From Streptomyces venezuelae (GTDB taxonomy: Bacteria; Actinomycetota; Actinomycetes; Streptomycetales; Streptomycetaceae): a stretch of DNA of 64,000 nt. Shown here piece by piece: positions 7,176 to 48,047 of this stretch. Location of the stretch: contig NZ_CP029194.1 of NCBI RefSeq assembly GCF_008642375.1, positions 2,666,001 to 2,730,000 of the forward strand, written 5' to 3'. Every line of letters begins with the position of its first letter. Position 1 is the first letter of the stretch. A program made the translations under genes and the position numbers. The notes beneath the pieces were generated by a model. That model did no database searches and was not told the origin of the DNA. It was given only the letters and a program-made list of their open reading frames with translations.

Positions 7176-8546
7176 GTGGCCATCTCGGTCTTCGACCTGT
7201 TCTCGATCGGCATCGGCCCGTCCAGCTCCCACACGGTGGGCCCGATGCGCGCGGCCCGGATGTTCGCCCGCCGCCTGAAGAACGAGGGCCTGCTCGCCCA
7301 CACCGCGGCCATACGGGCGGAGCTGTACGGCTCCCTGGGCGCGACCGGCCACGGCCACGGCACCCCCAAGGCGGTGCTCCTCGGCCTGGAGGGCAGCTCG
7401 CCGCGCACGGTGGACGTCGAGACCGCGGACGACGAGGTCGAGCGCATCAAGTCGAGCGGCCGGATCAACCTCCTCGGCGCGCACGAGATCCCCTTCGACT
7501 TCGACGCCGACCTGATCCTGCACCGCCGCAAGGCGCTCCCGTACCACGCCAACGGGATGACGATCTTCGCGTACGACGCCGAGGGCGCGCTCGTCCTGGA
7601 GAAGACGTACTACTCGGTCGGCGGCGGCTTCGTCGTCGACGAGGACGCGGTCGCCGGCGAGAACCCGATCGTCCCGGACGACACCGTCCTGAAGTACCCC
7701 TTCCGCACCGGCGACGAGCTGCTGCGCCTCGCCAAGGAGACCGGCCTCTCGATCTCCTCGATGATGCTGGAGAACGAGAAGGCCTGGCGCACCGAGGACG
7801 AGATCCGCGCCGGCCTCCTGGAGATCTGGCGGGTCATGCAGGCCTGCGTCTCGCGCGGCATGTCCCGCGAGGGCATCCTGCCGGGCGGTCTGAAGGTGCG
7901 CCGGCGCGCCGCGAACACGGCCCGCAAGCTGCGCTCCGAGGGCGACCCGGCGGCGCTGGCGATGGAGTGGATCACCCTCTACGCGATGGCCGTGAACGAG
8001 GAGAACGCGGCGGGCGGCCGGGTGGTCACCGCCCCGACGAACGGCGCGGCCGGCATCATCCCGGCGGTCCTGCACTACTACACGAACTTCGTGCCCGGCG
8101 CCGACGAGGACGGCATCGTCCGCTTCATGCTCGCGGCCGGCGCGGTCGGCATGCTCTTCAAGGAGAACGCCTCCATCTCGGGCGCCGAGGTCGGCTGCCA
8201 GGGCGAGGTCGGCTCGGCCTGCTCGATGGCGGCGGGCGCGCTCGCCGAGGTCCTCGGCGGCACCCCGGAGCAGGTGGAGAACGCCGCCGAGATCGGCATG
8301 GAGCACAACCTGGGCCTGACCTGCGACCCGGTCGGCGGCCTCGTGCAGATCCCGTGCATCGAGCGGAACGGCATGGCGGCGGTCAAGGCGGTCACGGCCG
8401 CGAAGATGGCCATGCGCGGCGACGGCAGCCACCTGGTCTCCCTCGACAAGGTCATCAAGACCATGAAGGAGACGGGCGCGGACATGAGCGTCAAGTACAA
8501 GGAGACCGCGCGTGGCGGTCTCGCGGTGAACATCATCGAGTGCTGA
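7176..8546 (+). CDS. sdaA: L-serine ammonia-lyase, iron-sulfur type
   Basis: 456 residues. Single-chain [4Fe-4S] L-serine dehydratase giving pyruvate and ammonia. The N-terminal domain has [14 protein letters not shown], a family hallmark. The catalytic domain has [10 protein letters not shown] and cysteines 341, 349, 383 and 394, which include the cluster ligands. The chain ends in NIIEC; a C-terminal cysteine that reaches into the active site and caps the cluster is known from the Legionella enzyme. GTG at 7176 follows AAGGAG (7164-7169). Together with gcvTH and glyA it drains excess glycine to pyruvate through serine. Confidence 0.96.
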
Positions 8547-8605
8547 GGCCTGCCCCTGACTCGTCCCGCTTTGTCCGGTGAGGTGATCGCGGGCGGCGCG
8601 CGGCC

Positions 8606-8611
8606 TACAAT
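8606..8611 (+). promoter_or_regulatory. Candidate -10 box for lipoprotein gene
   Basis: TACAAT, five of six bases of the vegetative consensus, 46 bases before the lipoprotein start. No convincing -35 is found at 17-18 bases; TTGTCC at 8571 is too far away. Confidence 0.4.
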
Positions 8612-8656
8612 CCGCGACCGCTGATGATCACGAGCACCGGACGAGGCGGAGAAGCG

Positions 8657-9553
8657 ATGCGGAAACTCCTGTGGGTGGCGGCCGGCCTGGCCGGGATCGC
8701 CGCCGCGAGCGGCTGCGGGGCGCCACAGACCTCGGGCCCGGCGGCCGGGACCACGACGGCTCCCCCGTCCGTGACGGCTCCCCGGTCCGTGACGGCTCCC
8801 CCGTCCGCCTCCCGCGCTCCGGCGGGCGCGACGGAGCTGCTGGCGCGGGCGGAGGCGGCCATGGGCGCCGAGGCCGGCTGGACCTTCACGGTGACGGGCA
8901 AGGAGTCGCTGACGCAGTCCGGCGCCCCGGAGGGGCAGGGCAGCAGGGCCTCGTACTCCGCCAGGGTGGACCGGACGGCCGGCCCGGAGGCCCTGCACCA
9001 GACCGGCACGGTCACCGGCAAGAACGGAAGCAAGGCCGAAGAGGTCGTCTCCGCGGGCGGCACCGGGTACGTGCGGGAAGGCGCACCCGGCGCTCCCTGG
9101 ACCAAGGGACCCCTGACCGACCCGGAGATCGCCGCCAAGGTGGAGGACCCGCTGGACGCCCTGGCCTCCTTCGCCGACTACGCCGAACGGGGCGAGCGGA
9201 TCGAGGTCGTCAGGTCCGGCGGCGAGATCCGGCTCCGGCTGCGGGTGCCCTCCGCGACCCTGGCCGAGCGCGAGGAACGGCCGGCGGTCGCGCGGGCCGC
9301 CCGGGAGTTCCTGCCGACTCTGAGGAAGCTGCGGAAGGCCGGGGTCACGGCGGGCGAGAAGAAGATCGTCCTGACCGGGCTGGAGGAGAGCCTCGTCCTG
9401 GACGCGAAGACGCACCGGATGAGGTCCTACCGTTCCTCCTTCGGCTTCGCCGTCCCGCACGAGGGCCGGCAGCTCCGCTACGCGCAGGAGCTCGGGGCGG
9501 ACACCCGGGGCGTTTTCACCGGCCGGATCGAGGCCCCCGTCACCGCCCGGTAG
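8657..9553 (+). CDS. Putative secreted lipoprotein
   Basis: 298 residues. The N-terminal signal is MRKLLWVAAGLAG followed by AAASGC, with Cys20 as the likely lipidated residue. A Pro/Thr/Ser linker (residues about 25-55) contains a threefold TAPxS(V/A) repeat. The remaining 240 residues form an unrecognised domain, perhaps related to LolA/LppX-like lipid-binding folds (low confidence). ATG at 8657 follows a purine-rich GGCGGAGAAG; an in-frame ATG at 8624 would place residues ahead of the signal peptide and is less likely. It is a single gene between sdaA and a membrane protein. Confidence 0.75.
   Translation: MRKLLWVAAGLAGIAAASGCGAPQTSGPAAGTTTAPPSVTAPRSVTAPPSASRAPAGATELLARAEAAMGAEAGWTFTVTGKESLTQSGAPEGQGSRASYSARVDRTAGPEALHQTGTVTGKNGSKAEEVVSAGGTGYVREGAPGAPWTKGPLTDPEIAAKVEDPLDALASFADYAERGERIEVVRSGGEIRLRLRVPSATLAEREERPAVARAAREFLPTLRKLRKAGVTAGEKKIVLTGLEESLVLDAKTHRMRSYRSSFGFAVPHEGRQLRYAQELGADTRGVFTGRIEAPVTAR
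8755..8808 (+). repeat. Three 18-bp tandem repeats inside lipoprotein linker
   Basis: Units at 8755-8772, 8773-8790 and 8791-8808 differ at one or two bases. They encode TAPPSV, TAPRSV and TAPPSA, an extendable linker between lipid anchor and domain. Confidence 0.85.
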
Positions 9554-9639
9554 CGCCTGTCCCTCAAGGTCCCTGGCGGCCGGTCCCTGTCGGTCGAAAA
9601 GCGGTTCGCCGCCCCGGAGCCGCCTGTAGTGTCCGCGTC

Positions 9640-10209
9640 ATGACCACACCGACAGAGACGACCGACGCGGAGTGCCTCGCCCTCACACGCGGTCTGCGCC
9701 GCCGCGGTGCGATCGTCCTCGCCGGCTTCGGCCTCGTCTGGGCCCTCGCGGGCGGTTCGGGGGTGGCGGCGGCCCCGGTGTCGATCGCGCTCGGTGTCGT
9801 CGCGGCGGCCGTGACGGCCGGCGCCGTCGTGGTCGCCTTCCGGGGCACCCAAGGCCCCGTCACCCGCCTGGTGCGGCTGCCGGAGAAGTGGAACCGCGGG
9901 GTCGGCCTGGTCAACGGTGCCGAGCTGCTGGCGATCTTCGCGGTGATCGCCGCGTCGAACGCGTCGGGCCACCCGGAGTTCATCCCGGTCGGGATCTGCC
10001 TGGTCGTCGGTCTGCACTTCTTCCCGCTGGCGCGCCTCTTCGACCAGCCGCAGTACCGGTGGACCGCCATCCTCCTGACGGCGCTCGCCCTGGCCGGTCT
10101 CGCCGTCCTCGCGACCGGGGCCTCGGCGGAGACGACCCGTGCGGTGGTGGGTCTGGGCGCGGCCGCCGTGCTGTGGGGCTCGTCGTTCCACGTGGCCCTG
10201 CGGGGCTAG
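9640..10209 (+). CDS. Membrane protein of unknown function (DUF7010-like)
   Basis: 189 residues with about six hydrophobic segments (roughly 21-45, 46-70, 95-115, 121-138, 147-165 and 168-187). The motif VVGLHFFPLARLFDQPQY in the centre resembles DUF7010 membrane proteins (recalled, not searched). No catalytic residues are recognised. ATG at 9640 starts a clean frame. The stop codon lies inside the first arm of a terminator hairpin shared with the convergent CopD-like gene. Confidence 0.7.
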   Translation: MTTPTETTDAECLALTRGLRRRGAIVLAGFGLVWALAGGSGVAAAPVSIALGVVAAAVTAGAVVVAFRGTQGPVTRLVRLPEKWNRGVGLVNGAELLAIFAVIAASNASGHPEFIPVGICLVVGLHFFPLARLFDQPQYRWTAILLTALALAGLAVLATGASAETTRAVVGLGAAAVLWGSSFHVALRG

Positions 10210-10271
10210 GGGGTGTCGCGGGCCAGGCGGGACTTTCCGGACACCCCCTAGGGGGCAAGGCACCCCCTAGG
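10206..10271. terminator. Overlapping alternative hairpins between convergent genes
   Basis: CTAGGGGGTGTC (10206-10217) pairs perfectly with GACACCCCCTAG (10240-10251). CCTAGGGGG (10247-10255) pairs perfectly with CCCCCTAGG (10263-10271). The two stems share 10247-10251, so only one can form at a time. Both flanking genes end on a TAG inside these arms. It serves as a two-way terminator. Confidence 0.75.
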
Positions 10272-11184
10272 GCGCGATCCAGTGCGGGTCGGGGACCACC
10301 GTGAGGAGTGCCGAGACGACCATGACCACCATCAGCGCGGCCGCCTCGATCCGGGCCGGGGCCTCGGCGGCGCCGCCCGACAGCATGCGGCTCCTGGCCG
10401 CCAGGGCCAGCAGGCTCACCCCGCCGAAGATCAGCAGCTTGACCAGCAGGATCCGGCCGTAGGCCGTGGTCAGGACGGCGTCCAGCGGCAGTCTGCGCAG
10501 GGTGGAGGCCGTGCCGGTGACCGCCAGGGCCGCGTAGACGACGGCGGCCATCCGGGCGTAGCGGAGGAGCACGTCTCGGCCGCCGCGCCGCAGTTTCATG
10601 GTGCGCAGCACGTACAGGAGCGTGCCGAGCCAGAGCGAGGCTCCCGTGAGGTGGACGACGGTGAGCCCGATGCCCACGGCCGGGGTGTACGTCTCCGTGT
10701 GGGCGCGCAGCGCCTCGGCGACGACCGCGACGGCCAAAGGCACCACGGCGAGGACGGGGCGCCGGGAGGCGGCGCACAGTGCGGCGAGGGCGAAGGCGTT
10801 GGCCGTGACGAGCAGGAGGCGGCCCTCGCGCAGCCCGTACACGACGGGCAGGCTCAGCCCGCTGACGGCGGCGAGGAGCAGCAGGAGTCCGGCGGAGGCG
10901 GCCGAGGCGAGCAGGGCGGCGGGCACGGACAGGGCGCGGGGCCGGGGTCCTTCCCCGGCGAGACGGCGTCCGGCGAGTTCGCCGACGTGGACGGCGAGGC
11001 CCGTGAGGACGAGGAAGCGCAGGAGCGCGGTGGTGCCGGCGGCGGGTATCCGGAGCTCGCCGGTGCCCGTCTGGGCGAGGCCGGCGCCCAGCAGGGCGAG
11101 GCCTATGACGGCGAGGGCGGCGACCGCGGCGAGGACCGCCGCGGTCAGACGGCTCGGGGTACCGAAGGGTCCGGGAAGCGTCAC
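10267..11184 (-). CDS. CopD family copper resistance membrane protein
   Basis: 305 residues with about eight membrane segments. The C-terminal half holds the CopD domain: LTVVHLTGASLWLGTLLYVL (around 184), TGTASTLRRLPLDAVLTTAYGRILLVKLLIF and a last helix. The conserved His in VVHLTGASLWLG and the GRILLVKL motif are family hallmarks. The usual partner CopC is not fused or adjacent. Start is GTG at 11184. A role in copper uptake or handling is expected from the family only. Confidence 0.8.
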   Translation of the reverse strand: MTLPGPFGTPSRLTAAVLAAVAALAVIGLALLGAGLAQTGTGELRIPAAGTTALLRFLVLTGLAVHVGELAGRRLAGEGPRPRALSVPAALLASAASAGLLLLLAAVSGLSLPVVYGLREGRLLLVTANAFALAALCAASRRPVLAVVPLAVAVVAEALRAHTETYTPAVGIGLTVVHLTGASLWLGTLLYVLRTMKLRRGGRDVLLRYARMAAVVYAALAVTGTASTLRRLPLDAVLTTAYGRILLVKLLIFGGVSLLALAARSRMLSGGAAEAPARIEAAALMVVMVVSALLTVVPDPHWIAP

Positions 11185-35277: not shown

Positions 35278-37833
35278 CTACCGCAGCAGGCAGCCCGCGC
35301 CCTCCCCCGCCGTCTCCTCCGGCAGCGCCACGAGCCCCGGTTCGGCCTGGTGGGCGAGGAGCGGGTGGGCGGGCAGGACGCGGACCGTGCAGCCGAAGGA
35401 GCCGGTGCGGTCGAGTTCCAGGGTGCCCGCGTACGGCTGCCGGCCCTCCAGGTCCGGGCGGCCCGCCGGCTTCAGCGGGACCGTACGGGTGTCGGCGAGG
35501 GTGTCGTCGGCGTCGACCCGGCCGGTGACGGCCTGCACCTCGACGTCGTCGGTCCGCAGCCCGTCGAGGAAGACCTTGACCCGGACGACCGGGGTCGAGC
35601 CGAGCTCCGCGTCCTCCAGGTCGTCCGCGAGCCCGTCGCCGACCTCGACGTGGTCGACGGTCACCTTGGGCCAGGCCTCCCTGACCCGTGCCTTCCAGGC
35701 CGCGAGCTCCCGCGCCCGGTCCGGGGTGAGCGCCCGGCGGGCGTCGGCGGCGGGGACGTACAACCGCTCGACGTACTCGCGGACCATCCGGTCGGCGAGG
35801 ACCTTCGGGCCGAGGTCGGCGAGGGTGCGCCGGACCATCGCCGTCCAGCCGGCCGGGACGCCGTCGGGGCCCCGGTCGTAGAAGCGGGGGGCGACCCGAC
35901 GCTCGATCAGCTCGTAGAGGGCGGCGGCCTCCAGGTCGTCCCGGCGGTCCTCGTCGGCGGCTGCGGCCCCGTCGGCGGTGGGGATGGCCCAGCCGAAGTC
36001 GGGCTCGAACCACTCGTCCCACCAGCCGTCGAGGACGGAGAGGTTGAGGCAGCCGTTGAGGGCGGCCTTCATGCCGCTGGTGCCGCAGGCCTCCAGGGGG
36101 CGCAGCGGGTTGTTGAGCCAGACGTCGCAGCCGGGGTAGAGGCCGCGGGCCATCTCCATGCCGTAGTCGGGGAGGAAGACGATCCGGTGCCGGATCCGGG
36201 GGTCGTCGGCGAAGCGGACCAGCTCCTGCACGAGCCGCTTCCCGCCGTCGTCGGCCGGGTGGGCCTTGCCGGCGACGACGAGCTGTACGGGCCGCTCGGG
36301 GTGGAGCAGCAGGGCGCGCAGCCGGTCCTTGTCCCGGAGCATGAGCGTGAGCCGCTTGTACGAGGGGACGCGGCGGGCGAAGCCGATGGTGAGGACGTCG
36401 GGGTCGAGGACGGAGTCGGTCCAGCCGAGTTCGGCGGCGGCCGCCCCGCGCTGGCGCCAGGACGCCCGGAGCCGTTCCCGTACGTCGGTCACGAGCCGTT
36501 CGCGCAGGGTGCGGCGCAGTTCCCACAGCTCGCCGTCGGTGGCGTCGGGGCCGAGCCGGCCGACCTCGGGGGCGACCCAGGTGGGGGCGTGGACGCCGTT
36601 GGTGATGGAGGTGATGGGCACCTCCTCGGCGTCGAAGCCCGGCCAGAGCCCGGCGAACATGGCGCGGCTGACGGCGCCGTGGAGGGTGGAGACGCCGTTG
36701 GCGCGCTGGGCGAGTCGCAGCCCCATGGCGGCCATGTTGAAGACGCCGGGTTCGCCGCCGAGCGGGGTCTCGTCGCCGAGCGCGAGGACGCGTCCGGTGT
36801 CCACGCCGGGGAGGGCGCCGTCCTCGCCGAGGTGGCGGGCGACCAGGCCGCGGTCGAAGCGGTCGATGCCGGCCGGGACGGGGGTGTGGGTGGTGAAGAC
36901 GGTCCCGGCCCTGACGGTCTCCAGGGCGCTGTCGAAGTCGAGTCCCTCTCCCTGGAGTTCGCGGATGCGTTCGAGGCCGAGGAGCCCGGCGTGGCCCTCG
37001 TTGGTGTGGAAGACCTCGGGGTCGGGGGTGCCGGTGAGCCGGGTGTACGTGCGGACGGCGCGGACTCCGCCGATGCCGAGGAGCATCTCCTGGAGGAGCC
37101 GGTGCTCGCTGCCGCCGCCGTACAGCCGGTCGGTGACGCTCCGTTCGCCGGGGGCGTTCTCCTCGACGTCGGAGTCGAGCATGAGCAGCGGGACGCGGCC
37201 GACCTGGGCGATCCAGATGTGGGCGTGCAGGCTGCGCCCGCCGGGCAGGGCGAGGGTGACCCGGGCAGGGGTGCCGTCGGCCTCGCGAAGCAGGGTGACC
37301 GGCAGCTCGCCGGGGTCGAGGACGGGGTACTGCTCCTGCTGCCAGCCGTCGCGGCCGAGGGACTGACGGAAGTAGCCGTGGCGGTAGAGCAGGCCGACGC
37401 CGACGAGGGGGACGCCGAGGTCGCTGGCGGACTTGAGGTGGTCCCCGGCGAGGATGCCGAGGCCGCCGGAGTACTGGGGCAGGGCCGCGGCGACGCCGAA
37501 CTCCGGCGAGAAGTACGCGACGGCCACGGGCGGCCGGCCCGGCCGGCCCTGGTACCAGCGGGGGGCGCACAGATAGGTGTCGAGGTCCTCGGCGGCGGCG
37601 GTCAGCCGGGCCAGGAAGTCCCGGTCGGCGGCGAGCTCGGCGAGCCGGGGGCCCTCGAGGGCGCCGAGGACCCGGACGGGGTCGGCGCCGGTCCGGCTCT
37701 CCGGGGCGAGGGAGTCGAAGAGCGCGCGGGTGGGTTCGTGCCAGGACCAGCGCAGGTTGTGCGCGAGGTCGGCGAGGGGTCGAAGGGTGTCGGGGAGGAC
37801 GGGACGCACGGTGAATCGACGGATTGCCTTCAC
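35278..37833 (-). CDS. glgP: Alpha-glucan (glycogen) phosphorylase
   Basis: 851 residues. N-terminal DUF3417-type region (PLADLAHNLRWSWH) followed by the phosphorylase fold with YKRLTLMLRD, and the PLP lysine in CGTSGMKAALNGCLNL. It releases glucose-1-phosphate from alpha-1,4 glucan. Start GTG at 37833 (VKAIRRF) follows GAAGGTGG; GTG at 37842 is a less likely alternative. In related Streptomyces it is divergent from glgE; here six accessory genes lie between. A nested hairpin precedes the ribosome binding site. Confidence 0.93.
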   Translation of the reverse strand: MKAIRRFTVRPVLPDTLRPLADLAHNLRWSWHEPTRALFDSLAPESRTGADPVRVLGALEGPRLAELAADRDFLARLTAAAEDLDTYLCAPRWYQGRPGRPPVAVAYFSPEFGVAAALPQYSGGLGILAGDHLKSASDLGVPLVGVGLLYRHGYFRQSLGRDGWQQEQYPVLDPGELPVTLLREADGTPARVTLALPGGRSLHAHIWIAQVGRVPLLMLDSDVEENAPGERSVTDRLYGGGSEHRLLQEMLLGIGGVRAVRTYTRLTGTPDPEVFHTNEGHAGLLGLERIRELQGEGLDFDSALETVRAGTVFTTHTPVPAGIDRFDRGLVARHLGEDGALPGVDTGRVLALGDETPLGGEPGVFNMAAMGLRLAQRANGVSTLHGAVSRAMFAGLWPGFDAEEVPITSITNGVHAPTWVAPEVGRLGPDATDGELWELRRTLRERLVTDVRERLRASWRQRGAAAAELGWTDSVLDPDVLTIGFARRVPSYKRLTLMLRDKDRLRALLLHPERPVQLVVAGKAHPADDGGKRLVQELVRFADDPRIRHRIVFLPDYGMEMARGLYPGCDVWLNNPLRPLEACGTSGMKAALNGCLNLSVLDGWWDEWFEPDFGWAIPTADGAAAADEDRRDDLEAAALYELIERRVAPRFYDRGPDGVPAGWTAMVRRTLADLGPKVLADRMVREYVERLYVPAADARRALTPDRARELAAWKARVREAWPKVTVDHVEVGDGLADDLEDAELGSTPVVRVKVFLDGLRTDDVEVQAVTGRVDADDTLADTRTVPLKPAGRPDLEGRQPYAGTLELDRTGSFGCTVRVLPAHPLLAHQAEPGLVALPEETAGEGAGCLLR

Positions 37834-37858
37834 GTGTTCCACCTTCGCAGGCGAGTAC

Positions 37859-37903
37859 GGAGCGGAGTGGACGCACCACGCTGTGCGTCCGTCGTTCCGC
37901 TCC
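37859..37903 (-). terminator. Nested hairpin between accessory operon and glgP
   Basis: The outer stem GGAGCGGA (37859-37866) pairs with TCCGCTCC (37896-37903). The inner stem GGACGCAC (37869-37876) pairs with GTGCGTCC (37883-37890). On the minus strand it lies 70 bases past the end of the flavin monooxygenase gene and ends 26 bases before the glgP start. It may terminate the accessory operon, or be a leader structure of glgP. Confidence 0.6.
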
Positions 37904-37972
37904 GACGTTAGGACATGTCGCCCGGCCGGGCCACGGCGCGTCGGCGCACGTGGCGTGTCGGCAGGGCGTCTT

Positions 37973-39328
37973 TCAGCCGATGGCGGGCAGCGGCACCTCG
38001 TACGGGGAGCCCTGGTTGACGGTCTCCGCGTCGAAGGCCCCCGCGGTGGCGTACCGCCCGGCGACGGCGGCGAGTTCCGCGGCCGGGACGACGTCGTGGA
38101 TGTCGGTGAAGCCGTGCGGGGCGCGCTCGTGGGCGAGGTTGATGACGACCTCGGGGCCGAGCCGCCGGTTGGCGCGCTGGAGGGCGGTCATGGCGGGGCG
38201 GCGTTCGGCCTCGTAGGCGGCGAGGCCCTCGGCCGGGTCGTCGTGCCGGGCCAGGGCGTGGGCGAGGGCCCGGGCGTCGACGATCGACTGGGTGGCGCCG
38301 TTGGAGCCGGTCGGGTACATGGCGTGGGCGGCGTCGCCGAGGAGGGTGGTCCGGCCGTGGGTCCAGCGGTCGAGGGGTTCGCGGTCGACCATCGGGTACT
38401 CGTGCGCGGAGTCGGCGGCCCGCAGGATGTCGGGGACGCGGACGCCGTCGAACTCCCAGCCCTCGTAGAAGGGAAGGAAGGTCTCCACGGGTACGGAACG
38501 GTCCCAGTCGCCGCGGAGCCGTTCCTCCGCCGCGGCGCATCCGGAGTCCGCGGGGCGGGCCAGTGCCCAGTTCACCAGGACCTCCCGGCCCGGTCCCGTC
38601 GGGCGGCTCATCGGGTAGACCACGGCCTTCTGCCGGTCGTCGCCCGCGATGAGCATGAACGAGCCGACGGCCCGCGCCGGCATCCGGGACACCCCCCGCC
38701 ACACCAGCATCCCGTTCCACGGGGGCCCGCTCTCGCCCGGGTGCAGCGCCGCCCGGACGGCGGAGCGGATGCCGTCCGCGCCGACCAGCACGTCCGGTTC
38801 GAGCGAGGCCCGGCCCCGGACGGCGCCCGAGCGGTGCTCAAGGCGCAGCCGCGGCCGGCCGTCCGGCAGCGGTTCCACGCCGCTCACCCGGACCCCCGTC
38901 ACGAGCGCCGCCGCGCCGAGCCTGGCCCGGACCGCGCCCGCGAGGACCTGCTGGAGGTGGGCGCGGTGCACCGAGAGCTGCGGCCAGCGGTAGCCCGCGC
39001 CGAGACCGCGCGGCTCGCGGGATATCAGGCCGCCCGAGCGGTGGTAGTAGCGCAGCTCGCGGGTGCGCAGGGCGCCTGCCTCGAGCGCGTCGAGCAGGCC
39101 GAGGGCGTCCAGTTCGCGGACGGCGTTCGGCATCAGGTTGAGCCCCGCACCGACCGGGCGGATCGCGGCGGCCGCCTCGACGACCGTGACGCGCTCGAAT
39201 CCGGCGGCGTGCAGGGACAGGGCGGTGGTGAGCCCGGCGATGCCGCCGCCGGCGATCACGACGTGCGGGCTCCGTCCGTAGGGGGAGCGGGCCGGGGAGT
39301 GGGCAGGGGAGGAAGTGTGCGGGGACAT
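37973..39328 (-). CDS. PhzS-like FAD-dependent monooxygenase
   Basis: 451 residues. Class A flavoprotein hydroxylase: FAD fold HVVIAGGGIAGLTTALSLHA (about 22-41), the Arg-containing SVHRAHLQQVL, the DG motif LVGADGIRSAVRAAL and the GD motif TTLLGDAAHAMYPTGSNGA. Segments such as TRELRYYHRSGG, REPRGLGAGY and EYPMVDREPLDRW closely resemble phenazine monooxygenase PhzS as I remember it. NADH and oxygen would be used to hydroxylate an aromatic ring. The tryptophan halogenase WxWxIP motif is absent. The N-terminus has an extra 20 residues rich in Ser/Pro. It is the last gene of the operon, 19 bases after the PrnB-like gene. No phenazine core gene is present, so the substrate is probably not a phenazine. 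Confidence 0.85.
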   Translation of the reverse strand: MSPHTSSPAHSPARSPYGRSPHVVIAGGGIAGLTTALSLHAAGFERVTVVEAAAAIRPVGAGLNLMPNAVRELDALGLLDALEAGALRTRELRYYHRSGGLISREPRGLGAGYRWPQLSVHRAHLQQVLAGAVRARLGAAALVTGVRVSGVEPLPDGRPRLRLEHRSGAVRGRASLEPDVLVGADGIRSAVRAALHPGESGPPWNGMLVWRGVSRMPARAVGSFMLIAGDDRQKAVVYPMSRPTGPGREVLVNWALARPADSGCAAAEERLRGDWDRSVPVETFLPFYEGWEFDGVRVPDILRAADSAHEYPMVDREPLDRWTHGRTTLLGDAAHAMYPTGSNGATQSIVDARALAHALARHDDPAEGLAAYEAERRPAMTALQRANRRLGPEVVINLAHERAPHGFTDIHDVVPAAELAAVAGRYATAGAFDAETVNQGSPYEVPLPAIG

Positions 39329-39347
39329 CGACTGCTCCTTCGCGCCG

Positions 39348-40454
39348 TTACGCGGCAGCGGGCCCGACAGGGGCCCCGGCGGGACGGTGCCGCACGGCCG
39401 TGCGGCGCACCATGGTCTCGTTCTCCCTGGTCAGGTCCAGGATCGAGCGGAGCAGCGCGACGGGGGCGCCGCCGCTGCCCTCCTCGTACAGGCGCAGGTC
39501 GTCGCTGTACGCCTTGCGGGCGACGCCGAGGTGCCGGGCCCGGAAGGTCTTGAGGATCCGCAGCACCCTGCCGAGCGCGGCCGCCGAGTCGACGAGCTCG
39601 GGCGGCAGCCGGTCCATGGGCTCCCAGCTGACCGCCGCGGACAGCTTGCTCACCGCCGACACTCCGCCCCGGTGCCGGGCGTGGAACTCCCGCCAGCCCG
39701 GCAGCGCGTACGGCAGGGACTCGGCCAGGAAGGCGTCGTAGGCGGCGTCCGAGCGGTCGCACTGCCACAGCGTCAGGTCGACGAGCCAGAGGGGGACCTG
39801 CGCGGCGGCCGGACCCAGGTAGTCGCGGCCCGCCACCTCGACCTCCTCGAAGTACGGCCGCAGGGTCACCGCGAAGTACTCGGGCGGGACCTGCGCGGCC
39901 GTGAGGTCGATCGAGTCGACCATCGCCTGCACGTGGCGGGCGACCCGGTCCAGGGCGGAGGCGAATCCGGGGTCGTACGGTTCGAGGCGGGCGACGCGGG
40001 AGCAGTCCTCGATCGCGGCGACGAGGCCGGGGAAGACCATGCGGACCGCCTCCTGGAGCAGGGCCTCGGTCGGATGGCCGGTGTACGAGCGGCGCCGCCG
40101 CCCGGGCGGGTTCCAGGTCGTGTAGTGGTGGACGGTGTCCCGGGGCACCATGTCCGTCCGGCGGCCGAGGAGTTCGAGGACCGGCAGTGCCTCGGGGACG
40201 GCGGCGAGGGGCTGCACGCCGTGGCGTTTCAGCGAGCCGAGCAGGATGCCGAGGTCCCGCATCGCGGCCAGCGCGCCCGCCACGCTCCACTGCGCGGCCA
40301 GTTCCTGATCGGGGACGAGGGCGCGCAGGGCGACGGTGAGGGCGGCGGTGTCGCGCCGGGCGTTCATCGCGGGCACCGCGGCGAGCAGGGCGTCGGCGCC
40401 CAGCGGGTCGGCGGCACGTATGTCCTCGGTGCGATGACGTGGATCGCCGAACAA
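39348..40454 (-). CDS. PrnB-family (DUF1864) haem protein, indole dioxygenase superfamily
   Basis: 368 residues, close to the length of PrnB. PrnB rearranges 7-chlorotryptophan in pyrrolnitrin biosynthesis and is related to indoleamine and tryptophan 2,3-dioxygenases. Conserved blocks are MNARRDTAAL (30-39), HHYTTWNPPG (109-118), EYFAVTLRPYFEEVEV, GPAAAQVPLWLVDLTLW and TFRARHLGVARKAY. In the last, His308 is the likely axial haem ligand. The start is TTG at 40454 with GAGGAG seven bases upstream and no better codon in frame. The gene follows an MFS exporter by 123 bases and precedes the PhzS-like gene by 19. The substrate is likely tryptophan or another indole, by family only. Confidence 0.8.
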   Translation of the reverse strand: MFGDPRHRTEDIRAADPLGADALLAAVPAMNARRDTAALTVALRALVPDQELAAQWSVAGALAAMRDLGILLGSLKRHGVQPLAAVPEALPVLELLGRRTDMVPRDTVHHYTTWNPPGRRRRSYTGHPTEALLQEAVRMVFPGLVAAIEDCSRVARLEPYDPGFASALDRVARHVQAMVDSIDLTAAQVPPEYFAVTLRPYFEEVEVAGRDYLGPAAAQVPLWLVDLTLWQCDRSDAAYDAFLAESLPYALPGWREFHARHRGGVSAVSKLSAAVSWEPMDRLPPELVDSAAALGRVLRILKTFRARHLGVARKAYSDDLRLYEEGSGGAPVALLRSILDLTRENETMVRRTAVRHRPAGAPVGPAAA

Positions 40455-40577
40455 TGGGCGCTCCTCTTCTTCTGGGGCTCGTTCACCTCCGGGGCGCTTC
40501 AGCGGCTGTCGACGGCCGCGCGCCCCTTCGGGTCACTCGCCGGGTGGTCGTGGGCATCGGTCAAGGAGTGGTTCCGG

Positions 40578-42038
40578 TCACCGGAGGTCCAACACCCCGG
40601 GGTCGTCGGGGACAGGGGCCGGCTCGGGGACGTGGAGGCGTACGGAGAGCAGGGCGGCCAGGGCGGCGAAGGCCGCGCCGGTGAGCAGCGCGGCACGGAA
40701 GCCCGCGGTCTCGGCGGCGGCGCGGGCGGCGGCCACGGCCCCGGCACCGGGCCCGGAAGCGGCTTCGGTACGGGAGGTGGCGACGGCCACCAGGACGGCG
40801 AGGCCGAGGACGGAGCCGAACTGCTGACTGGTGTTGACGAGTCCGGAGGCGAGTCCGGTCTCCTCGGGTGCCGCCTCGGCCGTCGCGGCCACGTTGGTGG
40901 TGACCATGACGAGCGGCAGGGCGGCGCCGATGAGCAGGCTGGGCGCGAGGACCGTGCTCGCGAAGGTGCCGTCGGGGGTGAGCGCGAGGGCCAGCCAGAG
41001 GGTCCCGGCGCAGAGCAGGACGAAGCCGAGGGTCATGGCCCGGTGCAGGCCGATCAGGAAGATGATCCGGCCGGCCTGCGGGGCGACCGCGACGACGACG
41101 AGCGAGAGCGGCAGCAGGCCGAGGCCGCCGCCGAGGGGCGCGTACCCGATGACGCTCTGGAGGTAGAGGCTGACCAGGAAGAACATCGGGAAGAGGGTGA
41201 TCTGGGCTAGTGCGGCCAGGGCGTTGGAGAGGCGGAGCACCGGGCGGCGGAGGACCGGGGGCGGGACGAGCGGCGCGGCGGCGCGCGTCTCGACGGCGGC
41301 GAAGGCGAGCAGCAGCGCGAGGCCCGCTCCCCCGGCGCCGAGGGTGCGGGCGGAGGTCCAGCCGGCCTCGGTCCCGCCGACGAGCGCGTAGGCGGTCAGT
41401 CCGAGTCCGCCGGTCGCGGTGAGCGCCCCGGCGAGGTCGAAGCCGCCGCCGGTCCGGAGCCGGCCCGCCCGGTGGTCGAGGAGCCGGAGCGCGAGGGCGG
41501 CGAGGACGGCCGCGAGGAGGACGTTCAGCCAGAACGTGGAGCGCCAGCCGAGGAGGCCGGTGAGGGCGCCGCCGAGGACCGTGCCGAGGACGCCGCCGAG
41601 ACCGCCCATCGCGGCGAAGACGCCGAGCGCCTTGTGCCGGGCGGGACCGTCGGGGAAGAGCAGGAGCAGCAGGGCGAAGGCGGCGGCCGCGGCGAGGGCC
41701 GCGCCGACGCCCTGCGCGGCGCGGGCGGCGACGAGCGCGGGCGCGCCGGGGGCGAGGGCGCCGGCGGCGGAGGCCGCGGCGAGGAGGGCGAGGCCGGCGA
41801 GGAAGACCCGGCGGTGGCCGAGGAGGTCGGCGACGCGTCCGCCGAGGAGGAGCAGCCCGCCGAAGGTGATCAGGTAGGCGTTGGCGACCCAGGAGAGGCC
41901 GGCCGAGCCGGACCCGAGGTCCGCGCCGACGGAGGGCAGGGCGACGTTGACGATCGCGGTGTCCGTGATCAGGAGCAGCTGTGTGGAGGCGAGCAGCGCG
42001 AGCGCCCCGCGCCGCGGCCCCGGTCGGGGTGTCGTCAC
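40578..42038 (-). CDS. MFS exporter, DHA2 family, of accessory cluster
   Basis: 486 residues, 14 hydrophobic segments. Typical motifs are TDTAIVNVALPSVGADL (helix 1), GGRVADLLGHRRVFL (after helix 2), RAAQGVGAAL and LGGALTGLLGWRSTFWLN. Its GTG at 42038 overlaps the stop of the HpaB-like gene (GTGA). It probably exports the product of the neighbouring oxygenases, or gives self-resistance. Confidence 0.9.
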   Translation of the reverse strand: MTTPRPGPRRGALALLASTQLLLITDTAIVNVALPSVGADLGSGSAGLSWVANAYLITFGGLLLLGGRVADLLGHRRVFLAGLALLAAASAAGALAPGAPALVAARAAQGVGAALAAAAAFALLLLLFPDGPARHKALGVFAAMGGLGGVLGTVLGGALTGLLGWRSTFWLNVLLAAVLAALALRLLDHRAGRLRTGGGFDLAGALTATGGLGLTAYALVGGTEAGWTSARTLGAGGAGLALLLAFAAVETRAAAPLVPPPVLRRPVLRLSNALAALAQITLFPMFFLVSLYLQSVIGYAPLGGGLGLLPLSLVVVAVAPQAGRIIFLIGLHRAMTLGFVLLCAGTLWLALALTPDGTFASTVLAPSLLIGAALPLVMVTTNVAATAEAAPEETGLASGLVNTSQQFGSVLGLAVLVAVATSRTEAASGPGAGAVAAARAAAETAGFRAALLTGAAFAALAALLSVRLHVPEPAPVPDDPGVLDLR

Positions 42039-43465
42039 CGGGTCGTCCCCAGGCCGTAGCCGTCGAGACAGGTCCGGGCGAGCCGCTCGCACGTGTCGGC
42101 GGACCCGGCCCAGGTCTGCATGGTCAGGTAGACGTGGGGGGCTCCGTGGTAGAAGCGCTCGTACTGCTCGTGGCGGCCGGCGAACTCGGAACCGAGCGCG
42201 TCCCAGGCGAGCTTGAGGAGTTTGAGGCGGTCCTCGGCGGGGTGGCCCGGGGTGCGGAAGTACTGCCGGACGAGCGGGCCGAGTTCGGGGTGGAGGAGGT
42301 CCCGGCCGCTCGCGGGGAGCTGGACGAGGGCGCCGCCCGCGAGGAGCTTGATGTCCTGGACGGCCCGCGGGTAGAGCTCGCCGGCCATGATCCGCTGGGC
42401 GAAGGAGATCTCCTGGCCCGGCCGGACACCGCCGCGGCCCCCGTCGACCTCCTCGTACGAGGCCTCGGAGCCGAGGACGAAGGCCTTGGCCTGGGCGACC
42501 ATGCCGAGGAGCCGGCCGAGGGCCTGGGTGACGGGCGGCAGCTTGTCGGTGCCGTGCGAGCGGGCGACGAGGATCGCGAGGCCGGTGAGGAACTCCAGCT
42601 TCGTCCAGAAGCGGGTGGCGGACTGGTGGACGAAGTTGAGGTAGGCGGGGGTGCGCCACCAGATCGCGCCGGTGGTGGCGGGGTCCCGGTAGGTGAGGAC
42701 CCGTTCCCAGGGCACGAACACGTCCTCGCAGACGAGCATCGCGTCGTTCTCGTCGTACCGGGAGGAGAGCGGGTGGTCGAAGACGGACCGGGACCGCCCC
42801 TCGTACGAGGTGCGGGAGATCAGCTTGAGACCGGGGGTGTCGAGGCGTAAGGAGAACGTCACGGCGTGGTCGAGGTCGTCGTCGGCCAGCGGTTCGATGG
42901 TGCCGACGAGGAGCTCGTCGGCGAAGACGGCCCCGGTGCCGATGGTCTTGGCGCCGCGGACCACGATCCCGCCGTCGCGCTCTGCGACGATCCGGAGCGT
43001 GAGGTCGTCCTCGCCGGGGCCCGAGGCCGGGTTGGTGAGGGTGAAGGCGGCGTGCAGGTCGCCTTCGGCGAGCCGGCGGTGGAAGCCGAGGGCGTGCTCG
43101 GCACCGTCGAAGGCGTCGCCGGTGAAGACGGCGGGCGCGGCGGCGAAGCCGGCCGCGCCGGCGGCCATGTAGTCGGGGGTGCGGCCGAGGAAGCCGTAAC
43201 TCGCCTCGGCCGTCGTCCGGAAGGCCCGGCGCCGGGCCACCAGGTCCTCGTAGGAGCGGGGCACCGCGTAGGCGCGCCGCACCCCGCCCTGGACCAGGAC
43301 GGGGTGGTGCGCGGGGTCGTCGGCGAGGTCGTACAGGCCGGCGAAGGAGGCCGCCGAGGCCCGGAAGGCGGGGTGGGCGGTGACGTCCTTGACGCGCTCC
43401 CCGTCGAGCCAGATCTCGCGCCCGTCGCGCAGCGCCTCCAGATACTCCTGCCCGGACCTCGTCAC
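42035..43465 (-). CDS. HpaB-like FADH2-dependent aromatic monooxygenase
   Basis: 476 residues. 4-hydroxyphenylacetate 3-hydroxylase family with acyl-CoA dehydrogenase-like fold. Matching blocks are DVTAHPAFRASAASFAGLYD, the PRSYEDLVARRRAF region, FHRRLAEGDLHAAFTLTNP, AKTIGTGAVFADELLVG and EDVFVPWERVLTYRD. It would ortho-hydroxylate a phenol or similar using reduced FAD from a separate reductase. No HpaC-type reductase is in the cluster. GTG at 43465 follows GGAGAGGCGAG. First gene of the operon, behind AraC-type repeats. Confidence 0.88.
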   Translation of the reverse strand: MTRSGQEYLEALRDGREIWLDGERVKDVTAHPAFRASAASFAGLYDLADDPAHHPVLVQGGVRRAYAVPRSYEDLVARRRAFRTTAEASYGFLGRTPDYMAAGAAGFAAAPAVFTGDAFDGAEHALGFHRRLAEGDLHAAFTLTNPASGPGEDDLTLRIVAERDGGIVVRGAKTIGTGAVFADELLVGTIEPLADDDLDHAVTFSLRLDTPGLKLISRTSYEGRSRSVFDHPLSSRYDENDAMLVCEDVFVPWERVLTYRDPATTGAIWWRTPAYLNFVHQSATRFWTKLEFLTGLAILVARSHGTDKLPPVTQALGRLLGMVAQAKAFVLGSEASYEEVDGGRGGVRPGQEISFAQRIMAGELYPRAVQDIKLLAGGALVQLPASGRDLLHPELGPLVRQYFRTPGHPAEDRLKLLKLAWDALGSEFAGRHEQYERFYHGAPHVYLTMQTWAGSADTCERLARTCLDGYGLGTTR

Positions 43466-43512
43466 CGGTCGCTCGCCTCTCCTCGGGTGTCACGGCTCTG
43501 CCGTCCCGAGCC

Positions 43513-43593
43513 TGTCCGGCGAGGAGCGTCCGGGCAATGAACGTCCGTCCAGGGGTCCTTAAGAACCGTCCAGGCCCGGCGCGCCGCCTGGAC
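43513..43593 (-). promoter_or_regulatory. AraC-type direct repeats and promoter of accessory operon
   Basis: CCGTCCAGG occurs at 43545-43553 and again at 43566-43574, exactly 21 bp apart, the spacing of two AraC half-sites. A third, inverted copy of seven bases (CCTGGAC) is at 43587-43593. On the minus strand the repeats end eight bases upstream of TTGCCC (43532-43537). That is followed after 17 bases by a weak -10 candidate, CAGGCT. The adjacent AraC gene is the obvious regulator. Confidence 0.55.
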
Positions 43594-43643
43594 ACCCGCC
43601 GCGGGGCACCCGCGGGGACCCGCGGCGGCGGCGCCCGGCCGGT

Positions 43644-44639
43644 TCAGGCGGCCCTTGCGCCCCCCGCGCGGTACTCGCCCGGCGTCACCCCGAACCACTT
43701 GCGGAAGGCGAGGTGGAAGCCGACGGCGCTCTGGTAGCCGATACGGGCGGGCAGGGCGGACTGCGGGAGCGACGTCTCGGTGAGGAGCCGTACGGCCTCC
43801 TGCATGCGGCGGGCGGCGAGGTAGCGGGCCGGGGACTCGCCGACGAGCTCGCGGAAGGCGGCGGTGAAGGCGGAGCGGGACATGCCGACCTCCCGGGCGA
43901 GGGAGTCGATCCGCCATGGCTCGGCGAAGCGGGTCGTGATCATCACCACCGCCCGGCTGATGCCGGGGTGCCGCAGCATGGGCAACGAGGCCGGGCTGCC
44001 CGCGAGTTCACGCAGCAGCGGGCGGAGCGCGAGGACGAGCGCCATCTCGAAGGCGCGCAGGGTGATGAGCCGGTCGCCGGGTCCGACGGGCCGGTCGGGG
44101 GAGGCGAGCAGCCTGAGGGTGTCACGGAGCAGCGGCTCGCGGTCGACCTGGGCGCGGTCGAGGACGAGGGCCCAGGGCAGGGAGGTGTAGAGGCCGGTGG
44201 CGGCGCCGGCGTCGTAGTGGAGTCCGGCGCAGAGCAGCCGGGCCTCGGGGCCCGTGCCCTCGATGACGATCTCGCCGGAGGTGCCGGGCTGCCGTTCGGG
44301 CAGGACGGCCTTGAGGGGGACGCCCTGGCGCTCGGGGCGGTCGGCGAGGCGGTGCGCGGTGCCGGTGGGGAAGACGACGAGGTCGCCGGCGTGCAGCTCG
44401 ACGGAGGCCTCTCCGTCGGTGGTGATCCAGCAGTCGCCCTCGACGACGTAGTGGAGGACGGCGCAGCTGCGTTCGGCGTCGCCTTCGATGGCCCAGGGGG
44501 CCCGGACGTGCCAGCGACTGTCGAAGACGCCGGTGAGCCGGAGGGGTTTCAGGAGCTCGGTCAGCAGGTCCTCGTGCTCGGCACCGGGCTGAGCATCGTG
44601 CTCGCGCCGGTCGTGACGGTCGGTTCCCACGGTATCCAT
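43644..44639 (-). CDS. AraC-family transcriptional regulator (cupin sensor)
   Basis: 331 residues. N-terminal cupin_6 domain (VLHYVVEGDCWITTD, HAGDLVVFPTGTAHRL). C-terminal double helix-turn-helix includes RIDSLAREVGMSRSAFTAAFR and RIGYQSAVGFHLAFRKWFGV. ATG at 44639 follows AAGGATC. It is divergent from the NmrA-like gene and upstream of the HpaB operon, and probably controls both in response to an aromatic ligand. Confidence 0.9.
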   Translation of the reverse strand: MDTVGTDRHDRREHDAQPGAEHEDLLTELLKPLRLTGVFDSRWHVRAPWAIEGDAERSCAVLHYVVEGDCWITTDGEASVELHAGDLVVFPTGTAHRLADRPERQGVPLKAVLPERQPGTSGEIVIEGTGPEARLLCAGLHYDAGAATGLYTSLPWALVLDRAQVDREPLLRDTLRLLASPDRPVGPGDRLITLRAFEMALVLALRPLLRELAGSPASLPMLRHPGISRAVVMITTRFAEPWRIDSLAREVGMSRSAFTAAFRELVGESPARYLAARRMQEAVRLLTETSLPQSALPARIGYQSAVGFHLAFRKWFGVTPGEYRAGGARAA

Positions 44640-44667
44640 GGACGATCCTTCAACTTCCGCCCCGGTT

Positions 44668-44680
44668 TGTTAATTGAACA
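44668..44680. promoter_or_regulatory. AT-rich inverted repeat between AraC and NmrA-like genes
   Basis: TGTTAATTGAACA, symmetric at all but one pair. Such an AT-rich dyad stands out in this GC-rich DNA and lies in the 118-base divergent promoter region. Confidence 0.5.
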
Positions 44681-44757
44681 GCCGAAGCCGCCGCGACGAG
44701 CCTGGAAGGCAGCCGGCACGACAGCAGCGACAGCCTATCGAAGGGCCTCAGAAAGAC

Positions 44758-45699
44758 ATGTCCAGTGAGATTCCGATGCGGGTGGCGGTCGTGGGCGCGA
44801 CCGGATTCCAGGGCGGTGCGGTGGCCCGTCTGCTGGCCGAGCGGCACCACCGGGTCCGCGCCCTGACGCGGCGCCCGGAGGCCGACCGGCCGCCGCTGCC
44901 GGGGGCCTTCTTCCTCGCCGGCGACCTGGGGCGGCCGGGCGACGTGCGGCGGCTCTTCGAGGGGACGACGCACGCGTTCGTCACGATGCCGCTGGTGTAC
45001 GACCCGGAGCGGGTGGAGGCGTACGCGCGGAACATCGCGGACGCGGCCCTGCGCGCGGGCACGGTCCGGCTGGTCCTGAACACCAACACCCGTGTCCCGC
45101 ACGCCCCGACGGGGTTCCCGGCGTTCGAGACGCGGCGCCTCGCGGAGCGGGTGCTGCGGGACAGCGGGGTGCCGCTCGTGGTGGTCAGGCCGCCGGTCTA
45201 CCTCGACAACCTCTTCTCGCCGTGGAACGGTCCCGCGCTCGTCGACGAGGGCGTGCTCGCCTATCCGCTGCCGGAGTCGGCGCGGACGGCGTGGCTCTCG
45301 CACCGGGGTCTGGCGGAGGCGGCGCTGGCGGCGCTGACCCGGGAGGGCCTGGAGGGGCGGACGTTCGACATCGGCGGTGCGGCGGCGCTGACGGGCGGGG
45401 AGCTCGCGGCGGCCTTCGGCCGGGGCCTCGGCCGGGCCGTGCGCTATCAGGAGCTGGATCCGGTCGACTTCGAGCACGGGCTCGCCGGGCTCCTCGGTCC
45501 GGCGGCGGCGGCCGGGGTGGCGGGGATCTACCACTACATGGCGAGCGGCGCGGATCCGCTGCTCATGGCGGACGACGACGGGGTGTCGGCGGAGGCGCTG
45601 GCGCTCGAACAGGCCCCGGTGGAGGAGTGGGTGGCCCGCCAGCCGTGGCAGGTCTGGTCGACGGACGCGGAGGAACCGGACGCCTCCCCGCGCCGCTGA
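44758..45699 (+). CDS. NmrA-like NAD(P)-binding protein
   Basis: 313 residues, atypical short-chain dehydrogenase. Rossmann motif VAVVGATGFQGGAVARLLAE (about 9-28), then GDLGRPGDVRRLF and VVVRPPVYLDNLFSPW. The YxxxK catalytic pair is not evident, as in NmrA and azoreductase-like proteins, which can be redox sensors or reductases. The ribosome binding site before ATG 44758 is weak (GAAAG). Divergent from the AraC regulator and ends in a strong terminator. It could reduce a product of the oxygenases; this is inference. Confidence 0.8.
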   Translation: MSSEIPMRVAVVGATGFQGGAVARLLAERHHRVRALTRRPEADRPPLPGAFFLAGDLGRPGDVRRLFEGTTHAFVTMPLVYDPERVEAYARNIADAALRAGTVRLVLNTNTRVPHAPTGFPAFETRRLAERVLRDSGVPLVVVRPPVYLDNLFSPWNGPALVDEGVLAYPLPESARTAWLSHRGLAEAALAALTREGLEGRTFDIGGAAALTGGELAAAFGRGLGRAVRYQELDPVDFEHGLAGLLGPAAAAGVAGIYHYMASGADPLLMADDDGVSAEALALEQAPVEEWVARQPWQVWSTDAEEPDASPRR

Positions 45700-45760: not shown

Positions 45761-45790
45761 AGCCCCGCCTCCGCCGAGGCGGGGCTTTTT
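45761..45790 (+). terminator. Rho-independent terminator of NmrA-like gene
   Basis: AGCCCCGCCTC (45761-45771) pairs with GAGGCGGGGCT (45776-45786), loop CGCC, followed by TTTT. It isolates the accessory cluster from glgE. Confidence 0.92.
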
Positions 45791-45959: not shown

Positions 45960-48043
45960 ATGCCCGCAACCCGCCGGCCGCCGACGGAGCTAGAAAGAGC
46001 GCACCACCACCCGCACCCCCGTAACCCGTCAGGTGATGCTGTGAATCCGCTCATGGGACGCATTCCCGTACTGGACGTACGCCCGCTGGTCGACTGTGGC
46101 CGGCGCCCCGCGAAAGCGGTGGCAGGAGAGACCTTCGAGGTGACGGCGACCGTCTTCCGCGAGGGGCACGACGCGGTCGCCGCCAATGTCGTATTGCGCG
46201 GCCCGTCCGGCCGCCCCGGCCCGTGGACCCCGATGCGCGAACTGGCCCCCGGTACCGACCGGTGGGGCGCCGAGGTCACCCCGGACGCCGAGGGCTCGTG
46301 GACGTACACCGTCGAGGCGTGGAGCGATCCGGTGGCCACCTGGCGGCACACCGCGAAGATCAAGATCCCGGCCGGGATCGACTCCGAACTCGTCCTCGCA
46401 GAGGGCGCCGAGCTGCACGAGCGGGCCGCGAAGGGCGTCCCGAAGAAGGGCGGCGGCCGGGAGGCCGTGCTGGCCGCCGCGGACGCGCTGCGCGATGTCT
46501 CCCGCCCGGCGGCGGTCCGGCTCGCGGCGGCGCTCGCGCCGCGCGTCGTCGAGTCGCTCGACCGCCACCCGCTGCGCGAACTCCTTTCCTCCTCCCCCGC
46601 GTTGCCGCTGCAGGTGGAGCGGGAGCGGGCGCTGTTCGGCTCCTGGTACGAGTTCTTCCCGCGCTCGGAGGGCGCGCGGAAGGTCAAGGGCCGTACGGTG
46701 CCGGGGAACTTCCGCACCGCGTCCGAACGGCTGCCGGCGGTCGCGGCGATGGGCTTCGACGTGGTGTACCTGCCGCCGGTCCACCCGATCGGCGAGACCC
46801 ACCGCAAGGGCCCGAACAACTCCCTCTCGGCGTCCCCGAACGACGTGGGCGTGCCGTGGGCGATCGGCTCCCCGGAGGGCGGGCACGACGCGCTCCACCC
46901 GGACCTCGGCACCTTCGAGGACTTCGACGCCTTCGTGGCGCGGGCCCGGGAGCTGCGTCTGGAGATCGCGCTGGACTTCGCGCTCCAGTGTTCGCCGGAC
47001 CATCCGTGGGTGGAGAAGCACCCGGAGTGGTTCCGCCACCGGCCGGACGGTTCGATCGCGTACGCGGAGAACCCGCCGAAGAAGTACCAGGACATCTATC
47101 CGATCGATTTCGACGGTGCCGCCGACAACATGGACGGGATCGTCGCGGAGACCGTGCGGGTGCTGCGGTTCTGGATGGACCACGGGGTGCGGATCTTCCG
47201 CGTGGACAACCCGCACACCAAGCCGGTGGTGTTCTGGGAGCGGGTGATCGGCGAGATCAACCGGGCCGATCCGGACGTGATCTTCCTGGCGGAGGCGTTC
47301 ACGCGGCCGGCGATGATGCGGACGCTCGGGGCGATCGGTTTCCAGCAGTCGTACACGTACTTCACCTGGCGCAACACCAAGGAGGAGCTGACGGAGTACG
47401 TCACCGAGCTGTCCGGCGAGACGGCGGCGCAGATGCGTCCGAACTTCTTCGTGAACACCCCCGACATCCTGCACGCCTACCTCCAGGAGGGCGGCCGGCC
47501 CGCGTTCGAGGCGCGGGCGGTGCTCGCGGCGACCCTCTCGCCCTCCTGGGGCATGTACGCCGGGTACGAGCTGTGCGAGGGCACCCCGCTGCGGGCCGGG
47601 AGTGAGGAGTACCTGGACTCGGAGAAGTACGAACTCAGGCCCCGCGACTGGGAGTCGGCGGAGCGGGCGGGGGCGACGATCACGCCGCTCATCACCGCCC
47701 TGAACCGGATCAGGCGCCGCCACCCGGCCCTCCGCAGGCTGCGGAACATCACCTTCCACGAGACCGACAACGCGCAGGTGATCGCGTACTCGAAGCGCTC
47801 GGGTTCGAACATCGTTCTGGTGGTCGTCAACCTCGACCCGCACCACACCCAGGAGGCTTCACTCTCGTTGAACATGCCGGAACTCGGCCTCGACTGGCAC
47901 GAGACCGTGCCGGTGCGCGACGAGCTCACCGGCGAGACCTATCACTGGGGCAGGGCCAGTTACGTGCGCCTGGAACCGGGTGTCACACCCGCGCACGTCC
48001 TCGTCCTGCGACCGTCCCCGCAGACCGGAGGGTCACCCACATC

Positions 48044-48047
<4 letters not shown>
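45960..48047 (+). CDS. glgE: Alpha-1,4-glucan:maltose-1-phosphate maltosyltransferase
   Basis: 695 residues. GH13_3 enzyme that extends alpha-1,4 glucan with maltose from maltose-1-phosphate. N-terminal beta-sandwich (about 35-150, [11 protein letters not shown] and [15 protein letters not shown]), a helical insert, then the barrel with [15 protein letters not shown] (nucleophile Asp) and [10 protein letters not shown] (acid Glu). ATG at 45960 follows CAGGAGC. Its stop overlaps the treS start (ATGA). First gene of the glgE-treS-mak-glgB block; an AT-rich CCTAGTAGTTAACAAAG at 45824-45840 may be part of its promoter. Confidence 0.95.

Follow-up and report, generated by a model that had tools for sequence, protein, structure and literature searches.

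The interval between glgP and glgE in Streptomyces venezuelae contains six genes, at positions 37973-45699 of a 64,000-nucleotide stretch (contig NZ_CP029194.1, positions 2,666,001 to 2,730,000 of the forward strand; hereafter the window, whose first letter is position 1), which form a real, conserved, orphan cluster that appears to follow a variant of the pyrrolnitrin-like tryptophan (Trp) pathway logic. They encode a PhzS-like flavin monooxygenase (FMO), a PrnB-family heme enzyme, an MFS exporter, an HpaB-like oxygenase, an AraC-family regulator and an NmrA-like protein; an initial annotation had placed these six genes between glgP and glgE, and all of them are found there. The favoured reading, with moderate confidence, is a minimal pyrrolnitrin-like cluster under AraC control that makes and exports an oxidised Trp derivative free of halogen. 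What was read directly from the sequence is the gene content, its conservation, the PrnB fold and residues, a His-to-Phe replacement in the HpaB-like enzyme, the regulatory boxes and the TrpD genes of sister clusters.

The PrnB-family protein (39348-40454, minus strand, with a TTG start at 40454 behind GAGGAG) belongs to the IDO/TDO superfamily. It scores 123.4 bits against PF08933 (gathering score 27), matches the PrnB of the PDB with E=1e-59 and is 39% identical to Burkholderia PrnB. Its AlphaFold model aligns with the PrnB-Trp complexes at Z 39 and a root mean square deviation of 2 Å, and with other folds at Z 27-28 (IDO) or Z 27-29 (IDO and SO4414 together). The proximal His, Ser319 and Tyr104 reported for FbPrnB (PMC11791213) correspond to His308, the loop residue Ser327 and Tyr111; in particular, the proximal His308 and the substrate-loop Ser327 are shared by the window protein and 11 of the 12 aligned members, the exception being the decayed copy L058. 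A Trp mono- or dioxygenase of the oxindole, kynurenine or hydroxytryptophan type, leading to a hydroxylated kynurenine, oxindole or indole product, is a possible alternative of lesser weight, which overlaps the preferred reading in substrate and differs from it in product. The fold common to IDO and SO4414 favours it, as do MarE (PMC11904535) and Luz15, which show that the superfamily performs other Trp oxidations; however, the closest match both by sequence and by structure is PrnB, and kynureninase and formamidase are absent from the set.

Besides the form adjoining glgE (context A), a second form unlinked to glgP/glgE (context B) occurs in eight genomes (L088, L090-L095, L098; represented a second time by L100-L102) with relatives that are 46-65% identical, and its hosts include Streptomyces parvulus, Kitasatospora aureofaciens and Virgisporangium. 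The exporter and the regulator are conserved in both contexts, and context B further encodes another PhzS-like enzyme, a ketosynthase (KS), a protein resembling DsbA and an oxidase of the berberine-bridge type (BBE). Its genes are usually arranged as araC divergent from FMO2-HpaB-MFS-NmrA-KS-PrnB-FMO1-DsbA/FrnE-like-BBE, so that the NmrA gene lies inside the operon, between MFS and KS; FMO2-HpaB-MFS is absent within the contig of L088, and the BBE was not found in L090 and L092. In the loci read, the stand-alone type I KS has Gln at the active-site Cys position (VDxAQASS) and keeps both His motifs, thus resembling KSQ domains, as exemplified by L093 (8362-9792); a related plasmid locus, L118, has PrnB-FMO-KS with a downstream carrier protein and a KS that retains the Cys. 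The window FMO groups with the FMO2 and not with the FMO1 of context B (support 0.99), and the context A PrnBs form one clade, sister to the PrnB of a gammaproteobacterial metagenome-assembled genome (L096; 0.97). The glgE-side cluster therefore corresponds to the core set lacking KS, FMO1, FrnE and BBE.

The genes downstream of the sister clusters bear on the substrate. In five context B genomes (L091, L093, L094, L095, L102) the cluster is followed by TrpD and a MocR-type regulator and, further downstream where read, by TrpE, TrpG and a class-II DAHP synthase, the latter two checked in L130 and L129, respectively; all three context B genomes tested have two or three TrpD genes that score above the cut-off, and each of four others has one. 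Since TrpD consumes anthranilate, the substrate would be Trp rather than anthranilate, and a dedicated TrpD is what is expected in a Trp-consuming pathway. The extra TrpD of the sister clusters, together with the PrnB fold and the Trp-site residues of the modelled protein, thus points to L-tryptophan as the substrate, and the oxidised indole or Trp chemistry suggested in the initial annotation gains support from the same evidence. The sister clusters also weigh on the proposal that the cluster serves to degrade or detoxify indoles or other aromatic compounds entering the cell, in which the oxygenases would open or hydroxylate the ring, AraC would sense the compound and the MFS protein would expel it. 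RclR/Cupin_6 regulators and NmrA-like redox proteins are common in stress and detoxification modules, and the set includes a regulator and a protein of these types as well as an EmrB-like exporter; nevertheless, detoxification is unlikely, as the six include neither a ring-cleavage dioxygenase nor a CoA ligase nor a gene for entry into central pathways, and the sister clusters also carry genes for making Trp and enzymes of a biosynthetic type (KS, BBE).

The HpaB-like FADH2-dependent oxygenase (42035-43465, minus strand; PF11794, PF03241) lies far below the HpaB equivalog cut-offs (264.8 versus 885.2 bits and 257.2 versus 480.2 bits). In TtHpaB, Arg100, Tyr104 and His142 hold the phenol, which His142 deprotonates (PMC10537072); in the window enzyme Arg95, Tyr99 and Phe141 align with these three, and some relatives have Cys at the Tyr position. 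All 68 cluster loci, some of which come from the same genome, show Phe at the position of the catalytic His, where none of 26 other Streptomyces HpaBs has it (His in 23, Tyr in 3). A canonical HpaB phenol hydroxylase is ruled out by this loss of the defining catalytic His. Because Phe replaces the residue that deprotonates phenol, a ring that needs no phenolate is expected, and an indole, aniline or pyrrole appears to be the simplest fit. The PhzS-like FMO (37973-39328, minus strand; PF01494, NF005720) is a single-component FAD aromatic monooxygenase of the FMO2 type that scores 491.8 bits against NCBIfam NF005720 (PRK07538; cut-off 400) and 286 bits against PDB 2rgj/3c96, named 'flavin-containing monooxygenase' in the match table, which we take to be PhzS.

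The substrate, the order of the steps, the product and the function of the operator are inferred in the following scheme. The PrnB-family enzyme would take L-Trp with its amine bound to the heme as in PrnB and would rearrange it oxidatively, the likeliest product being of the aminophenylpyrrole type or another indole derivative with an altered ring. Hydroxylation of this electron-rich ring would fall to the PhzS-like FAD enzyme together with the HpaB-like FADH2 enzyme, the NmrA-like protein may carry out an NAD(P)-linked reduction or act as a redox sensor, the MFS protein would export the product and the AraC regulator would activate hpaB-MFS-prnB-FMO through a 21-bp direct repeat. Several points weigh against this scheme. 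Context A lacks TrpD and the remaining supply genes, as do L088, L090, L092 and L098; PrnB relatives accompanied by an FMO alone (L103-L105) imply that substrates may differ between subclades; the product of the cluster is only predicted; and a flavin reductase gene is absent from the six-gene set. Furthermore, purified PrnB reportedly could not be brought to activity in vitro, for which its authors suspect a missing cellular component (PMC11791213), so that PrnB chemistry is not directly transferable. The more specific proposal is a tentative one: a halogen-free pathway in which a PrnB-type enzyme feeds PhzS-like and base-less HpaB-like hydroxylation of an aminophenylpyrrole or rearranged indole, generating a new class of exported hydroxylated Trp metabolites, with a minimal form fixed beside glgE and an extended form that brings a Trp supply of its own and a KS with the Cys-to-Gln change. 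If true, the cluster provides an actinobacterial PrnB homologue with its natural partner enzymes, which matter because of the missing component suspected for purified PrnB (PMC11791213), and defines an HpaB subgroup without the phenol-activating His.

No characterised cluster combining PrnB with HpaB- or PhzS-type enzymes was found in the open-access literature, to which the search was confined, subscription papers lying outside it; to this extent the view that no described pathway matches the locus holds, although one published trace, a 'Pyrrolnitrin-like?' table entry, was found. This is biosynthetic gene cluster 17 (BGC17) of S. venezuelae NRRL B-65442 in a 2022 table, an unlinked cluster of five genes, RS25415-25435, with no product detected and no transcriptional response (PMC9769785). 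Its five tags equal in number the five co-directional genes araC-hpaB-MFS-prnB-FMO, a match by count, as the source gives no gene names (PMC9769785). BGC17 is probably the same locus, and the proposed pathway, if true, accounts for this orphan entry in a model organism.

Among known systems, pyrrolnitrin prnABCD (Pseudomonas, Burkholderia, Azotobacter) is likewise a short Trp redox pathway centred on a PrnB-family heme enzyme; the window set, in contrast, lacks the Trp 7-halogenase PrnA, the halogenase PrnC and the Rieske protein PrnD, and has instead FAD hydroxylases, an exporter and an AraC regulator. In Azotobacter and Burkholderia the annotation places PrnA, PrnC and PrnD next to PrnB, and a true pyrrolnitrin cluster is ruled out here by the absence of the halogenases and the Rieske protein among the six genes. 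PhzS of pyocyanin biosynthesis belongs to the same FAD monooxygenase subfamily as the window FMO (PRK07538, over cut-off), whereas phenazine core genes (phzA-G) and PhzM are absent among the window six, no genome-wide search having been made. The likeness to 4-hydroxyphenylacetate 3-hydroxylase, HpaB, extends to the fold family, the Arg and, in most cluster enzymes, the Tyr; the differences are the Phe at the catalytic His and the lack of an HpaC partner among the six. PdnC of the paenidepsin cluster (Paenibacillus) is a further PrnB homologue located beside secondary-metabolite genes, with a proposed Trp oxidation; its context is that of a nonribosomal peptide synthetase, and its function is also only proposed (PMC13036774).

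Of 296 Streptomyces species, 36 have a PrnB relative, and in 21 of these it shares 67% identity or more with the window protein. The cluster is found in about 7% of species (about one in fourteen), not in most of them, and uniqueness to this strain is ruled out as well. In a class-wide search, 7 of 395 genomes had PrnB at E<=1e-40, all but one of them Streptomyces. PrnB of 60% identity or more is encoded at 52 genome loci, and all those on a sufficiently long contig have glgE, glgP or both as neighbours. GlgE and GlgP were also located in 30 PrnB-negative Streptomyces genomes, in 19 of which both lie on one contig: the 5'-to-5' gap measures 0.46-2.5 kb in all of them but one, where it is 5.6 kb, versus 8.1 kb in the window, and the intervals read are empty or contain one unrelated gene (e.g. 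a GNAT-like or an apparently subtilisin-like open reading frame). The interval is a variable site; the accessory insertion seen in the initial annotation is thus borne out, while the adjacency of glgP and glgE stated there applies as a short gap in 18 of 19 genomes, some of which hold another gene. Phage origin is ruled out (0 matches in 50,697 phage records), as is foreign composition, the cluster GC of 72-77% resembling that of the surroundings. The identity of all six genes tracks that of GlgE (Spearman 0.86-0.95; 45-53 loci), which indicates a unit inherited in place and rules out recent transfer.

Three copies show decay. L109 (G218; 8069-9831) is a remnant in the glgP-glgE interval with only the FMO and a PrnB fragment; L058 (10001-11104) has lost HpaB and MFS, and in its PrnB the heme His308 is Pro and the loop Ser is Gly; in L115 (G015; 9456-10549) prnB has a one-base deletion directly before the heme-His codon, which may mean a broken cluster or a sequencing error. 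These copies, including the frameshift at the His codon, and the 10 of 47 complete loci lacking one or two genes (5 without MFS, 3 without HpaB and MFS, 2 without FMO) suit an eroding relic with no present function. Such a relic is nonetheless very improbable: the window and 37 of the 47 complete loci have all six genes intact, the regulatory boxes are conserved, and the ratio of nonsynonymous to synonymous substitution, which is to be read with the strong GC bias of third positions in mind, is 0.20-0.29 for the six genes (GlgE 0.115, GlgP 0.22), indicating purifying selection.

Upstream of hpaB, 18 aligned genomes share the pattern CTGG(A/C)CGG-TTCTTAAGGAC-x-CTGGACGG-x-GTTCATTG, whose half-sites are 21 bp apart, the usual geometry of AraC-family activator sites. 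In the window it is represented by the direct repeat TGGACGGTTCTTAAGGACCCCTGGACGGACGTTCATTG (43535-43572, minus strand), which, by its conservation, is a candidate AraC operator/promoter of hpaB-MFS-prnB-FMO; the full pattern occurs 39 times in 2.0 Mb of loci and, among the matches listed, always upstream of hpaB. A second box, AAGGATCGTCCATG, surrounds the araC start in contexts A and B; its window form TGGACGATCCTTCAA (44639-44653, plus strand) covers the start and ribosome-binding site of araC and is matched once in the window versus 0.01 expected, and a variant occurs a single time in each of about 50 cluster loci from the two contexts. The araC gene and its putative operator, if the proposed reading is right, would be a direct handle to switch on a silent cluster.

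The regulator (43644-44639, minus strand; PF12852, PF12833) combines an AraC-family domain with Cupin_6. The NmrA-like NAD(P)-binding Rossmann protein (44758-45699, plus strand; PF05368) is divergent from araC, its start being 44758 or 44776 and not 44674, and the DHA2/EmrB-like exporter (40578-42038, minus strand; PF07690) scores 182 bits against TIGR00711, below the cut-off of 230. The overlapping genes, the dedicated promoter and terminator and the self-contained character initially ascribed to the unit are confirmed in part. HpaB/MFS is the sole overlap (4 bp), the remaining gaps being 19-178 bp; no sigma-70 consensus was found for the window cluster, and the conserved direct repeat lies upstream of hpaB; the intrinsic terminator (45769-45784, plus strand) serves the NmrA-like gene, and none was found between the FMO and glgP. 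The six genes are a co-regulated unit that lacks an HpaC-type flavin reductase gene of its own and, as no terminator precedes the tandem glgP, is not insulated on that side. In fact, the FMO gene and glgP (35278-37842, minus strand) are separated by only ~130 bp (37843-37972), and an operon reading towards glgP could alter glycogen phosphorylase expression; on the other side lies glgE (45960-48047, plus strand).

Other arrangements also occur. In another Streptomyces, L136 (G133), ~5.6 kb of different sequence fills the glgP-glgE gap (about 2.8-8.4 kb). L103, L104 and L105 are two-gene units of PrnB and a PhzS-like FMO that lack further cluster genes in the vicinity, their PrnB being 44-46% identical to the window PrnB, and on the Streptomyces plasmid p3211-2 (L119, 11857-13850) a divergent PrnB-family gene is directly followed by a GNAT acetyltransferase gene.

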